A stretch of 21,949 bases of DNA from a virus, in the IMG/VR virus record IMGVR_UViG_3300022187_000283, positions 1 to 21,949 of that record; one strand, 5' to 3'. Positions 7,626-15,493 of the stretch are shown in pieces. Within the stretch, counting starts at the first letter, position 1, and each line of letters starts with the position of its first letter. A model generated the notes under the pieces. That model saw only the letters and a program-made list of their open reading frames with translations. It was not told where the DNA came from and made no database searches. The position numbers and the translations under genes are program-made.

Positions 7626-7893
7626 GTGCTTTCTTCCTGGTATCTCCCAAAACTATCATCTATCGATGCTCAAATCTTCCGTCAGTCCGTTTTTCTGTTT
7701 CAAGACTAGTCAAGTATACCTTCGGAAAATATCCTGATCTCGAAAGATTTGAACAGAATCACAATTTTACTTGCTTTTCGTGGCTTTAAACCTGATTTGA
7801 CCCGTTCGATCTTGTATCTCGTTTGCATTCGGTTTGATTCTGATCCGCTCATGACCGCAAAAATTCTCACTTCCGCTCAGGACCGCAAAAATT
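7626..7893. other. Regulatory gap upstream of the XRE regulator
   Basis: No gene is supported in these 268 bases. It contains the direct repeat described separately and pyrimidine-rich DNA. A TTGACC at 7797-7802 could be a -35, but no good -10 is found at the right distance, so no promoter is called. Confidence 0.5.
7845..7893 (+). repeat. 28-bp-period direct repeat abutting the XRE gene start
   Basis: CCGCTCATGACCGCAAAAAT(T) at 7845-7865 recurs at 7873-7893 with a single T-to-G change (20 of 21 identical). The second copy ends exactly at the ATG of the XRE gene. Near-identical units that close to a start are a candidate operator, perhaps for autoregulation by that protein. Confidence 0.6.
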
Positions 7894-11663: not shown

Positions 11664-12538
11664 TACTGCTCCATGGTAATGGGTGAGTGACAGAAACCGA
11701 CTGATAGCTTCGTAATTTTTCCTCCTTTCTTTAAATAGTTTTGAATTTGATCCTTAAAATCCGAGGACTCTACGGAAGAGTCTGTCGGTTCCAGATCGAT
11801 GAAATGTCTTTTCTGTAAACGGGTCCAAGGACTGCTGAAGAAGTCGTTGCTCTCCGGTTCAAAGATGATGTCGGATTCCGGTGCATTGAACTTCTGTCGG
11901 TTCATTTTGATCTGCTGAAGATCCTTGGAACATCGATCACAAATCTTCGCCTTGGAATTCCTTGATAGAACCCGTTGTTTACATCGAGAACAGGGTCTGT
12001 TCGGATTCTCCTTGTATCGTTCTCGGTCCCGAAAGTTTCTGACTAATTGTTTGCACTGAGGGCTACAGTAGATCTGGTTGGAGTTCTTCTGAATGAATAG
12101 CTTGGAACAAGTTGATACTGCACAATGGACCTTTTTTCTGTTCAACCACTTCTCGTTTTCAACTACTCTTTCGTTCCCTCTCTGACAGATCGTGCTACAG
12201 AAGCGTTTATTCGGATGAACATCTTTGAATTTCCGGTTACAGTGCCGGTAGGCACAGGTCTTCTCTGGTTTTTCCTTCAGTCTTACTGCACGTTCTTCTC
12301 GTTTCTTCTTTAGAAACTTTTGATAGAACTTCTTACTTCCGACTTTCCGGCATTCTTTGGAACAGTAGACATTGATATTCGTTTTCGGTTGGAAAGTGCT
12401 ATTGCAGGTTGCACAGCTACTAGGTTTTAGCCTCGTATGCCTCCGTACATACATTTCATAAGTACAAGGATCTCCACAATACTTCTGGTTATTGACTTTT
12501 ATTGACATCTCCTTCTGGCATAGTTTGCACTGCTTCAT
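11663..12538 (-). CDS. Protein with five tandem four-Cys zinc knuckles and a GGKITKL tail
   Basis: 291 residues, basic. Five four-Cys modules are spaced along residues 4-203: Cys4/7/21/25, Cys42/45/59/63, Cys95/100/114/118, Cys139/144/158/162 and Cys183/186/200/203. In every one exactly 13 residues separate the second and third Cys, and the third is usually in a Y/F-C-S-x-x-C context (VYCSKEC, RFCSTIC, IYCSPQC). This fits repeated treble-clef/zinc-ribbon folds, which often bind DNA, RNA or proteins. An acidic linker follows, then IQNYLKKGGKITKLSVG (265-281), a C-terminal motif I know from other small phage and plasmid regulators. It lies between the exonuclease and ERF genes (ATGA overlap upstream). 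Function is not established; a nucleic-acid-binding regulator or recombination mediator is possible. Confidence 0.82.
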   Translation of the reverse strand: MKQCKLCQKEMSIKVNNQKYCGDPCTYEMYVRRHTRLKPSSCATCNSTFQPKTNINVYCSKECRKVGSKKFYQKFLKKKREERAVRLKEKPEKTCAYRHCNRKFKDVHPNKRFCSTICQRGNERVVENEKWLNRKKVHCAVSTCSKLFIQKNSNQIYCSPQCKQLVRNFRDRERYKENPNRPCSRCKQRVLSRNSKAKICDRCSKDLQQIKMNRQKFNAPESDIIFEPESNDFFSSPWTRLQKRHFIDLEPTDSSVESSDFKDQIQNYLKKGGKITKLSVGFCHSPITMEQ

Positions 12539-13470
12539 GACAACTCCATTACGTCCTCATGGTAACCTTGGCTATAGATCTCTCCAGAGAGATACTGTTT
12601 GTAGAGTTCGACTGCTTGATTGATCTTGAATTCTGCGTTGTGCATCAATTCATCGGAAAGTTTGTACAAGGCCACGTTGTACGGTGCTGTGTTTTCGACT
12701 ACTAAAAATAAAAACTCCGGATAGTGACCGGAAACAGATTGATAGGCTCTTCGATACCAGTTGGCCTGGATGTCGTATTGATACCGTGTGACTGCTTTTT
12801 TGAATCCGTACGGTGAAGCATCCTGAGCACTCTTCAGATCTACTACGAGGTGCTGTCCCTCGTCACTGTAATCAAGTCTCGCTTTTGCTCGGATACCGTT
12901 TTCTTCCCAAGTGATTACCTGTTCTACTTCCGCATTCGGAATGATTCTCCAGAACTCTGGATGTCTAAAAACTGACTCGGTCATCAGCACTACGTCTTCG
13001 TAGTCTTCTTTCTTCAGTACCGTTCTTTTTTCTTCTGCTACAAACTGATCGTATTCCTCCCGTCCTGCCTTCGTTCTCCTGTCCACATTGGGCGCAACCA
13101 CGTACTTGTCACCGAAAGATTTTCCGGCTAGTCGAAGTTCAATGGAATCGTGAATCGCTACTCCCTTTGCCATCGATGGAGACTGTTCCATCGGAGAAGA
13201 CAGATAGTGGTTCAAAGACTTGTTCAGCCGTTTGATTAGCGAGGCATTCAGTCCATCTAGTTCACAGTATTCATCGAAGCTCATTCTTGAACTTCTCGGT
13301 TTGATCACTGTGTTCCGGAGGATTTCTGCAGTGGGGATTAAATGTGGGGATCTATCGTGGGTCTGGATACTTTTGATCTGACCATTACTGATCATTCTTC
13401 GTATCTGATCGACACTGACTCCAAGAGCCTTGGCAGCCTGAGTGGTATTGAGAAGGTTGCTATCTTGCAT
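12535..13470 (-). CDS. Excisionase-type HTH fused to RecE/RecB-like PD-(D/E)xK exonuclease
   Basis: 311 residues from ATG at 13470, preceded by GGAG at four bases; the frame is open to an ATG at 13521, but that one lies upstream of the expected transcription start. Residues 5-52 (NLLNTTQAAKALGVSVDQIR and on, IKSIQ, HLIPTAEIL) are a MerR/excisionase-type winged helix (HTH_17). Residues 64-311 are a PD-(D/E)xK exonuclease: an opening YCELDGLNASLIKRL, His107, KARLD (196-200), VVDLKSA (209-215; Asp211, Lys213) and the QANWY motif (235-239). The nuclease part resembles the RecE/DUF3799 group, which makes 3' overhangs for an annealing protein such as the ERF gene downstream. The HTH may autoregulate the operon or guide integrase. 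It is the first gene of the early operon, divergent from the repressor. Confidence 0.85.
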   Translation of the reverse strand: MQDSNLLNTTQAAKALGVSVDQIRRMISNGQIKSIQTHDRSPHLIPTAEILRNTVIKPRSSRMSFDEYCELDGLNASLIKRLNKSLNHYLSSPMEQSPSMAKGVAIHDSIELRLAGKSFGDKYVVAPNVDRRTKAGREEYDQFVAEEKRTVLKKEDYEDVVLMTESVFRHPEFWRIIPNAEVEQVITWEENGIRAKARLDYSDEGQHLVVDLKSAQDASPYGFKKAVTRYQYDIQANWYRRAYQSVSGHYPEFLFLVVENTAPYNVALYKLSDELMHNAEFKINQAVELYKQYLSGEIYSQGYHEDVMELS

Positions 13471-13484
13471 TTCACTCCATGTTC

Positions 13485-13498
13485 TAACCGTTAACCGT
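13485..13498. repeat. Tandem TAACCGT repeat in the early leader
   Basis: TAACCGT occurs twice head to tail (13485-13491, 13492-13498), between the early promoter and the exonuclease start. GTGCAT also occurs twice ten bases apart (13506, 13516). Either could be a site for the HTH domain encoded just downstream or for the XRE regulator. Confidence 0.4.
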
Positions 13499-13526
13499 TC
13501 ACTCTGTGCATCGGAGTGCATATATG
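13498..13526 (+). promoter_or_regulatory. Predicted repressor promoter giving a leaderless mRNA
   Basis: TTCACT (13498-13503), a 17-base spacer and TATATG (13521-13526) make a moderate sigma70 promoter. The start would fall at about 13533-13534, the ATG itself; no Shine-Dalgarno is visible, so the repressor message may be leaderless, as is lambda cI from pRM. Confidence 0.4.
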
Positions 13527-13550
13527 ATCAGAAATGATTTATGGAGTCAA
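13522..13550 (-). promoter_or_regulatory. Predicted early promoter of the recombination/replication operon
   Basis: On the minus strand TTGACT (13550-13545) and TCATAT (13527-13522) are 17 bases apart. The -35 lies inside the repressor's first codons, and the operator at 13525-13540 fills the spacer, so a bound repressor would block it. The -10 is weak. Confidence 0.45.
13525..13540 (+). promoter_or_regulatory. Operator TGATCA-N4-TGATTT between repressor and early operon
   Basis: TGATCAGAAATGATTT covers the early promoter spacer, the repressor -10 edge and the repressor's ATG. The same 14-mer TGATCAGAAATGAT recurs at 13751-13764 inside the repressor gene. Half-sites are ten bases apart, as at the other operators. 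Confidence 0.6.
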
Positions 13551-14166
13551 CAAGAAAGTGCAAAAAATTTTAGAAAAGTTCGATCTGTGGCGGAAGTCCC
13601 AGGGATATTCTCAACAAGAGATAGCAGATGCCATTGGATGGGATCGATCTAAAGTGAACCGAGTTCTTCAAGGAAAACAGGATTCATCCTACTTTCTGAG
13701 CAAAATAGAACAGGTCTTTGGAAATATAGATGAGGTCAAAACGGAAGAAGTGATCAGAAATGATAACTATCGGCTGATCCGAAAGTTCGACACAGAGGCA
13801 AGTGGTGGAGCAGGAACGCTGACTACCGATGAAAACGGAGAAACAATCTCTGTGATTACCGAGTGGCTACCGAAGCTACCAGAAAAGAACCTAGCGTTCA
13901 TTACCGTAGTCGGTGACAGTATGTCTCCACTGATGGGTTCCGGAGATACGATTCTCGTTCATATGAACAGTGGCTTTCTCGGTGACGGAGTCTATGTCTT
14001 GAGACTCTGGGAGTCTCTCCATGTCAAACGGGTGCAACGGGTAGCTCAGGATGAGTACCGGATTGTGTCGGATAATCCGATCTACAAAGATCTCACGATT
14101 ACGGCTGATGATAGTGACGGGTTCGTTATCGTTGGAAGAGTCGTTCGTTTAGTAAAGGCACTATGA
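13534..14166 (+). CDS. CI/LexA-like prophage repressor with S24 peptidase domain
   Basis: 210 residues. Residues 25-46 (YSQQEIADAIGWDRSKVNRV and on) form the helix-turn-helix. A linker holds GGAGTL (91-96) with an Ala93-Gly94 bond where CI and LexA cleave themselves. The C-terminal S24 domain has VVGDSMSP (125-132, nucleophile Ser129) and LHVKRVQ (162-168, general base Lys165), then RIVSDNP (176-182) and IVGRVVRL. This implies a repressor cut during the host SOS response. The gene faces the early operon with shared operator DNA and shares an ATGA overlap with integrase, so repressor and integrase are made together. No Shine-Dalgarno precedes the ATG. Confidence 0.95.
   Translation: MIYGVNKKVQKILEKFDLWRKSQGYSQQEIADAIGWDRSKVNRVLQGKQDSSYFLSKIEQVFGNIDEVKTEEVIRNDNYRLIRKFDTEASGGAGTLTTDENGETISVITEWLPKLPEKNLAFITVVGDSMSPLMGSGDTILVHMNSGFLGDGVYVLRLWESLHVKRVQRVAQDEYRIVSDNPIYKDLTITADDSDGFVIVGRVVRLVKAL
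13751..13766 (+). promoter_or_regulatory. Operator-like site inside the repressor gene
   Basis: TGATCAGAAATGATAA repeats the 14-base core found at the repressor start exactly, 226 bases downstream. It lies in the linker-coding region and could give looping or roadblock autoregulation, or be chance. Confidence 0.4.
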
Positions 14167-15116
14167 TTGATCAATATATCGACTATCTACGGACCTATCG
14201 TTCAGAGAGGACTGTGAATACCTATCGACCTCAATTAGCCCGATGGCAAGCCTTCTCGACATCCGATTCCATTACTTACGAAACTTTTAAGGACTTTGTC
14301 GATCATCTCCGGTCCGAAGGTCTCTCCGATGGTTCAATCAATTCTCATTTACGATCTTTGAAAGCGTATTTGAACTGGTGTCATAAATATCTGAACCATC
14401 CGAAGCATCATGTGCCGATGCTGAAAGTGAACAAAAAGATCCCGAAGGTCTGGACAACTCATCAACTGGAGATCATCGAAACCATTCTTAATCACAGAGC
14501 ACAACGATCACGGAGATATCAAATTCTTCGGAGAACCCATTACATGCTTCGGTACACCGGAATGCGAGCAGGAGAATTGTTCCATTTGAACTGGTCAGAT
14601 ATCGGATCTGGAATCCGTATCGAAGGAAAGGACTTGTGGACAACAAAAAATAAACAAGACTCCATTCTCCCGATACATCCGAAGCTACTCGAGTTTTTAC
14701 AGATCGAAAAACATGAGGGGGAAACTAATTACTTGGATCACCATTTTAAAGAACTGAGTCATTTAACGTATTCGATGAGAAAGTTTCAGAAGTCTATCGA
14801 TTTAGATGGACCGAAACCACTCCACGGTTATAGAGCTTCTGTTGCTACTGAACTATTGTCCGGAAATATGAATCCGGTACACGTGCAACATCTGCTACGA
14901 CATGAACGTTTATCGACTACAGAACTCTATCTGAATACGACTCATTTGCCGCTACAAGAATTGGTGAATTCGTTAGGAATTTACAGAGAGGATACAGAGG
15001 ATGTTACAAAAACGATGAAGTGGCCAGAGCGGGAATCGAACCTGCGACACACGGATTTTCAGTCGTTAGAGGAAAAGATAGATAAACTGTTACGACTAGT
15101 ACAGAAAGATCAGTAG
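14163..15116 (+). CDS. int: Tyrosine-family integrase with attP inside its 3' end
   Basis: 317 residues. The N-terminal 90 form a SAM-like core-binding domain (TVNTYRPQLARWQAF; INSHLRSLKAYLNW). The catalytic set is Arg135 (TGMRAGELF), Lys162 (TTKNKQ), His221-x-x-Arg224 (HGYR), His247 (LLRHERLS) and nucleophile Tyr256 (ELYLN), all present. Residues 287-301 (WPERESNLRHTDFQS) are the antisense translation of a tRNA-Phe 3' end, the attP core, so the last 16 residues (LEEKIDKLLRLVQKDQ) would be replaced after integration. The start overlaps the repressor stop (ATGA). The last seven bases overlap the oppositely oriented endolysin gene. Confidence 0.95.
   Translation: MIDQYIDYLRTYRSERTVNTYRPQLARWQAFSTSDSITYETFKDFVDHLRSEGLSDGSINSHLRSLKAYLNWCHKYLNHPKHHVPMLKVNKKIPKVWTTHQLEIIETILNHRAQRSRRYQILRRTHYMLRYTGMRAGELFHLNWSDIGSGIRIEGKDLWTTKNKQDSILPIHPKLLEFLQIEKHEGETNYLDHHFKELSHLTYSMRKFQKSIDLDGPKPLHGYRASVATELLSGNMNPVHVQHLLRHERLSTTELYLNTTHLPLQELVNSLGIYREDTEDVTKTMKWPERESNLRHTDFQSLEEKIDKLLRLVQKDQ
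15021..15064 (-). other. attP core: 3' part of tRNA-Phe (anticodon GAA)
   Basis: Read on the minus strand, 15064-15021 gives tRNA positions 30-73: anticodon loop CTGAAAA (anticodon GAA at 15060-15058), 3' anticodon stem TCCGT, T-arm GCAGG-TTCGATT-CCCGC (one A-C mismatch), acceptor strand TCTGGCC and discriminator A. CCA is absent and the 5' half is missing: beyond 15064 the sequence no longer pairs with the anticodon stem. It lies in the int gene of a phage with an integrase, so it is the attachment core, and host integration would rebuild an intact tRNA-Phe. Confidence 0.88.
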
Positions 15117-15493
15117 GACCAGATCCAGGGACGGGGAGATTTGGCAGTATTGGTTAAATCGTCACAGTGAAGAAATCTAGTGGACCTCAATCCAGACATC
15201 TTAAATCCGAGTCCGGTCATCCCGTACTTCAGACAAAGTTTCATGAGTTCATAGGCTTCCTGACCGTAGATCAGAATGTCTACGGCTCTTCCTGTCGTAT
15301 GTGGTCCAGTGGGTCCAGTGGATGAAATCTCATCGTTATAACGTGGACATCGGTAGGCAGAACTAATGACCATCGGTTGCTGATATTCATCTCGGATCAA
15401 CTGTAGTTTTTCTAAGAAAGCTACGTTCATCTGATTGCCACCACAGCAATTACAACTAAGTTCTCTATGTTTGAAGTTCCGAGTTTCGATCAT
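15110..15493 (-). CDS. Endolysin, peptidase M15 family (zinc D-Ala-D-Ala / L-Ala-D-Glu type)
   Basis: 127 residues. VISSAYRCPRYNDEI (42-56), PHTTGRAVDI (64-73; zinc ligands His65 and Asp72) and RFLHCDD (106-112; His109) are the M15_3 blocks, and the end RPWIWSY is typical of phage members. Such enzymes cut the peptide stems of peptidoglycan. There is no signal peptide, so access to the wall needs the holin encoded three genes upstream. The ATG overlaps the upstream tiny gene's stop (ATGA); the stop overlaps the integrase end by seven bases. It is the last gene of the late operon. Confidence 0.92.
   Translation of the reverse strand: MIETRNFKHRELSCNCCGGNQMNVAFLEKLQLIRDEYQQPMVISSAYRCPRYNDEISSTGPTGPHTTGRAVDILIYGQEAYELMKLCLKYGMTGLGFKMSGLRSTRFLHCDDLTNTAKSPRPWIWSY

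Follow-up and report, generated by a model that had tools for sequence, protein, structure and literature searches.

The window (the whole viral stretch analysed, 21,949 nt) carries a gene, int, for a tyrosine recombinase, located between a gene for a putative CI/LexA-type repressor and a gene for a probable endolysin (Table 1). The encoded protein belongs to the Phage_integrase class, with a PF00589 match of E=4.7e-12 (46.5 bits against a cut-off of 27.1), and an N-terminal SAM-like domain was also detected by profile search (E 2.6e-8). Its catalytic residues (R135, K162, H221, R224, H247 and Y256) show no variation across 29 aligned sequences. The end of the repressor gene and the start of int share an ATGA (overlap 14163-14166), while int and the M15 peptidase gene converge with a 7-bp overlap. 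A further gene lies on the opposite strand (12535-13521) and diverges from the repressor gene, with 12 bp between the latter and its own start codon. It encodes a DUF3799 PDDEXK nuclease that carries an HTH_17/MerR-like domain at its N-terminus (that is, an excisionase-like HTH together with a recombination nuclease).

Table 1. Features of the integrase locus (positions in the window)
Feature	Position	Strand	Remarks
HTH + S24 peptidase-like (CI/LexA-type) repressor	13534..14166	+	PF00717 1.3e-18, HTH_3 3.1e-5
Tyrosine recombinase (integrase) gene int	14163..15116	+	317 aa; PF00589 and N-terminal SAM-like matches
C-terminal extension, codons 273-286	14979..15020	+	Between last helix common to relatives (LPLQELVNSLG) and core
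attP core	15020..15064	+	45 nt, antisense tRNA-Phe(GAA) 3' half; 100% identity to attB in L021
Antisense anticodon loop TTTTCAG	15056..15062	+	Likely 7-bp overlap region
Post-attP tail, codons 301-317 SLEEKIDKLLRLVQKDQ	15063..15113	+	Conserved amphipathic L302/I306/L309/V313
M15 peptidase, probable endolysin	15110..15493	-	PF08291 2.7e-14; tail-to-tail with int

The preliminary description placed the 3' end of a tRNA-Phe(GAA), in antisense orientation, in codons 287-301 of int, downstream of all catalytic residues (Tyr256 being the last) and with phage sequence on both sides. All of this was borne out, except that the match is 45 nt long (15020-15064) and not 44. It covers the tRNA from the anticodon stem-loop through the discriminator base and lies in frame with int, the first base of codon 287 (TGG) being 15021 and the last base of codon 301 being 15065, so that it encodes WPERESNLRHTDFQS. 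The invariant residues R135 to Y256 are all 5' of this core in gene order; the repressor gene and the rest of int lie upstream of it, and the M15 peptidase gene downstream. A half tRNA adjoining int is the arrangement of tDNA-targeting elements and would, on integration, restore the whole 3' half of tRNA-Phe. No complete tRNA was found in the 21,949-nt window by ARAGORN or Rfam, as expected if the core is half a tRNA. An Rfam match over the core to a plastid 3'UTR (E 0.067) was under the gathering score, resembles a match to tRNA-like sequence and was set aside.

An identical in-frame core is present in 20 of the 20 other integrases of the clade that reach the site (21 of 21 with the window). 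These were found in IMG/VR and comprise 18 close loci, 90-100% identical, plus the more distant L024 and L034 (61-63% Int identity). Since all 21 sequences keep the core and two of them are only 61-63% identical in Int, its position in the frame is not due to chance. The core therefore lies within the int frame and 3' of the catalytic codons in every sequence, which is the arrangement found in phage Mx8 (see below). The exact 43-nt core occurs in 22 viral stretches and in one contig among approximately 85,000 bacterial and archaeal species genomes. In one of the core-bearing contigs (37,108 bp) the core is internal and the ends share a repeat of 99 bp, as would fit a complete genome, either circular or redundant.

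The corresponding host site (attB) is an intact tRNA-Phe(GAA) gene identified by ARAGORN at 7631-7706 (+) of contig CAJXNF010000111.1 (L021), which comes from a bacterial MAG (G001) labelled uncultured proteobacterium. This contig groups with relatives of its own genome: a long protein is 91-95% identical in two of them (G037 and G038). The tRNA-Phe genes of G036 and G038 have the same 5' half as that of G001, with a T-arm of GGTGG..CCACC against GCAGG..CCCGC in G001. We considered the possibility that the G001 gene, with its phage-type T-arm, is an occupied site. This was ruled out by its downstream flank, which is homologous to that of G036 (alignment score 136; mean of shuffled sequences 36, with 0 of 200 as high). 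As the sequence upstream of the gene is, in addition, 85-88% identical among G001, G036 and G038, the G001 site is an empty attB. In attB a 5-bp inverted repeat (ACGGA/TCCGT, the anticodon stem) stands on both sides of the anticodon loop and, by general tyrosine integrase practice, the crossover is likely to be placed in this loop (15056..15062).

Some further observations concern this tRNA. At tRNA positions 51-63 the G001 gene and the phages, unlike the relatives, seem to have an A.C mismatch; the phage-like T-arm of G001 is possibly the scar of a past phage recombination, or simple divergence. Two viral contigs (L187, 9796-9831, and L188, 7179-7214) carry a tRNA-Phe 3' half of the G036/G038 type; phage cores thus vary along with the host version of the tRNA inside a single bacterial group. 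Two large contigs of another phage type (L022, 5041-5083, and L031, 2136-2178) share the 3' half of the window, in their case 48 nt including CCA, which lies between genes and about 11 kb away from their integrase. Two others (L189, 885-926, and L190, 6848-6889) have only the 5' half and the anticodon loop, the opposite of the half normally present in attP.

We joined attP and attB in silico at the anticodon loop, using the sites of three related hosts. With the G001 attB the frame remains open and Int changes from 317 to 311 aa, ending DFQSVALPTELSGR, with the tail LEEKIDKLLRLVQKDQ replaced by VALPTELSGR. The G036 site gives a protein of 312 aa (tail VALPTELSGLR) and the G038 site one of 330 aa (tail VALPTELSGRLEDKDVNPKKLWEIFQKSK). 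All three predicted prophage forms have an open frame and keep the catalytic residues, in agreement with the earlier proposal that integration drops LEEKIDKLLRLVQKDQ and retains the catalytic part. The part of Int that would be lost on integration is residues 302-317 (16 aa). The replacement tails of all hosts examined have SVALPTELSG in common, the first new residues, VALPTELSG, being fixed by the conserved 5' half of the tRNA. The predicted junction consists of int sequence and then ...AACCTGCGACACACGGATTTTCAGTC joined directly to CGTTGCTCTACCAACTGAGC; because the phage and G001 are identical over the whole core, the position of the crossover within it would make no difference to the product. 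Provided that the phage integrates at this site, the C-terminal swap is thus very likely to occur. Integration would also part int from the endolysin gene, as had been pointed out; this does follow, but trivially so, as it would from any attP located between two genes.

The tail that would be exchanged is a real coding element under purifying selection. The selection test was applied to the first 13 tail codons only and gives a pN/pS of approximately 0.2-0.3 (Fisher p 0.002-0.018). Over two independent comparisons (the window with L013 and L024 with L034) pS is 0.42 and pN 0.08 (Fisher p 0.002). Between the window and L024 the values are 0.75 and 0.24 (Fisher p 0.005), near those of the catalytic domain for the same pair (0.89 and 0.20). 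Variable columns of the tail are distributed 9/2/9 over the three codon positions, and codon 301 is TCG, TCC or TCT in different sequences, specifying Ser throughout. An a/d-like hydrophobic spacing is retained: L302, L309, L310 and V313 do not vary, and position 306 is occupied by I, L or M. AlphaFold models were made with five sequences (mean pLDDT 53) and with 29 phage sequences (mean pLDDT 78), and the latter was used. In it, residues 275-302 are disordered and residues 299-316 form a helix of pLDDT about 55-61, which suggests, with modest confidence, that the tail is a helix behind a disordered linker encoded by the tRNA. We consider it highly likely that the tail has a function in the phage form of Int. 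A role as a degron was also considered and not retained: by eye, neither the phage nor the prophage tail has an ssrA-tag-like end.

More distant integrases serve as natural controls. A wider scan provided 63 viral integrases with 36-40% identity to Int. In most of these sisters (L124-L186) the protein stops at Tyr+42 to +47 and a sense tRNA-Asn(GTT) half begins at, or overlaps, the stop. In several (L124, at about 1449-1457, and similar cases up to L186) the int stop is the TAA within the anticodon loop CTGTTAA; here the stop is provided by the tRNA target itself. In six others (L140, L153, L154, L157, L168 and L172) Int stops at Tyr+15, and the three that were inspected (L140, L153 and L172) have a half tRNA with a CAT anticodon about 90 nt downstream of the stop. 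This clade and the bacterial relatives from the host phylum, in which Int ends near residue 275, both terminate near the start of the extension formed by codons 273-286. The tRNA-Asn and CAT-anticodon sisters thus resemble the present phages in having a half-tRNA core at the 3' end of int, but their core is in sense orientation, with the stop before it or in the anticodon loop, whereas here it is antisense and is read through. As judged from these sequences, a sister Int that stops before or at the core should be unchanged by integration. A maximum-likelihood tree recovers one group for each arrangement (it was made by a quick method and has long bacterial branches, so that its deep order is unsure). 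As the read-through integrases form a single group, only one of the clades sampled has an int that runs across the core.

The preliminary description proposed that the C-terminus of Int be compared in phage and prophage form at real junctions. The change of tail could be followed in silico, but a search of 2.9 million viral contigs and of 52 host-phylum genomes turned up no attL or other prophage junction, and there was none among the 22 core-bearing viral stretches. The viral contigs also contained no restored tRNA-Phe with the host 5' half; this half is present in only two contigs, both lacking an intact tRNA. In the 52 genomes, none of the relatives has the read-through tail intact, and a TerL search of the host phylum genomes gave no match. 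As no prophage junction was found, we infer both integration at this site and any change in activity. Three viral contigs (L018-L020) that begin at the same base within int were examined as a possible attL/attP fork; their two strain types diverge at base 128, which fits an assembly fork (k=127), and the shared start has no biological meaning. The closest bacterial match (L041, 1501-2088, from G035, a member of the host's order) is a degenerate int interrupted by stops; the antisense tRNA fragment next to it resembles, by eye, tRNA-Arg(TCT).

Very few elements are described with att sites inside the integrase gene (PMC4701971), although the authors of Islander reckon with integrases reaching across attP (PMC4383910). 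Integration-dependent immunity had been put forward as the precedent for this locus. In mycobacteriophage BPs, attP lies in the repressor gene and the phage form of the repressor carries a degradation tag (PMC4557955). The two cases are alike in that attP is in a gene of the lysis-lysogeny decision and the prophage protein differs at its C-terminus. However, the BPs system alters the repressor; here it is the integrase that is altered, and the core lies 854 bp downstream of the end of the S24 repressor gene. Since the repressor gene is untouched, the precedent does not fit. The closest one is the pair of Myxococcus phages Mx8 and Mx9, which have attP within the coding part of a tyrosine integrase gene (PMC6070905, PMC4701971). 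On integration, the 112-residue C-terminus of Mx8 Int (IntP) is exchanged for 13 residues and the prophage form is less active (PMC4701971; also PMC6070905). As here, the C-terminus is replaced and the catalytic part stays, but in the present phages 16 residues would be exchanged for about 10-29, and the core, an antisense tRNA-Phe 3' half, encodes an invariant linker. A tblastn search of phage records, which may or may not include Mx8, returned no Mx8 match to Int at E 1e-5.

Two other systems share part of the arrangement. In streptococcal ICEs with serine integrases inserted in rumA, att lies in the integrase gene and C-terminal ends are reciprocally exchanged (PMC4701971); att within the integrase gene and the C-terminal exchange are common to both, but the ICEs use a serine integrase and a protein-coding target gene, and a frame change is involved. 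The archaeal SSV-type suicidal integrases also have att in int, a tRNA target and the anticodon loop as the overlap region (PMC8371274). They are a stronger form of the att-in-int arrangement, in which int is split and the catalytic domain parted from the N-terminus, whereas here the catalytic residues remain together.

Taken as a whole, the locus is probably the integration module of a temperate phage in which an attP core derived from tRNA-Phe serves as int coding sequence; that the phage is capable of lysogeny is suggested by the repressor, int and the identity of attP and attB. On integration into the host tRNA-Phe the phage-borne 3' half would restore the tRNA, with int then convergent with it. 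The int frame of the prophage would continue antisense through the 5' half of the host tRNA, LEEKIDKLLRLVQKDQ giving way to VALPTELSG and a few more residues. In our preferred reading, the tail of the free-phage protein would aid assembly of the integrative complex, and its loss would make the Int of the lysogen weaker or differently directed, thus limiting spontaneous excision. Such a limit may be called for because int, through its overlap with the repressor gene, may be co-transcribed with it in the prophage; this overlap makes expression of int in lysogens plausible. Whether the swap serves as a regulatory state switch is, to us, slightly short of an even chance. It is supported by Mx8, where the shortened prophage Int is less active; on the other hand, relatives without a tail end near residue 275, so that catalysis in general can do without it and its exchange could be neutral.

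It is also conceivable that int once ended just before attP, lost its stop and ran on passively through an open antisense frame, the swap having no function. The stops of the sister clades, at Tyr+15 or just at the core, fit such a history, two of the three antisense frames of tRNA-Phe are open and tailless relatives are common. We nevertheless regard it as rather unlikely: a useless tail would not be expected to have nearly invariant second codon positions, or to be kept in two lineages 62% identical with the pS and pN given above (0.75 against 0.24). The Int binding sites of attP normally adjoin the core, and the core-adjacent tail might be conserved as DNA, with 15063-15113 representing the other half of the core-type or arm-type sites and the frame being incidental. 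This is very improbable in view of the strong divergence of synonymous but not of non-synonymous tail sites, codon 301 specifying Ser every time.

The preferred reading also assumes an active int in the lysogen. The gene would face the restored tRNA, which is presumably strongly transcribed, and it could be silent, either unexpressed or opposed by this transcription, with excision depending on another factor or a superinfecting phage. The archaeal suicidal integrases show that such elements can persist (PMC8371274); yet their split contrasts with the prophage frame predicted here, which retains all catalytic residues, and the overlap with the repressor gene may allow transcription in lysogens, so that we judge a silent int improbable. 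Finally, the absence of a junction from the contigs and genomes searched, and the fact that in L022 and L031 this half tRNA is some 11 kb distant from the integrase, would agree with a captured tRNA fragment that is not a functional attP, the phage integrating elsewhere or never. This seems very improbable for a core that abuts the catalytic end of int and is identical to attB, all the more so as the sister clades hold tRNA-Asn or CAT-anticodon halves at the same place past the catalytic end.

The particular features of this locus are the linker encoded by an antisense tRNA, the small tail under selection, a replacement tail that is largely independent of the host, and the controls offered by the sister clades. 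The phage family adds a bacterial example that targets a tRNA and has a known empty attB to the few att-in-int elements. The small selected tail, the known attB and the sisters that stop before or at the core make it a clean case for comparative and experimental tests. A bolder possibility, which we hold only tentatively and think doubtful, is that crossover in the anticodon loop acts as a switch at the level of the protein, the sequence of Int itself recording whether it originates from phage or prophage. The free-phage enzyme would be marked by the tRNA-encoded linker and the selected helix tail, and integration would put in their place the tail that the conserved 5' half of the host tRNA fixes. 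If true, directionality would be obtained with less need for an excisionase and would have arisen in one clade, among relatives with frame-safe cores. The question that can be tested here is whether integration may change the behaviour of an integrase through its own sequence, a route to directionality distinct from that of excisionases.
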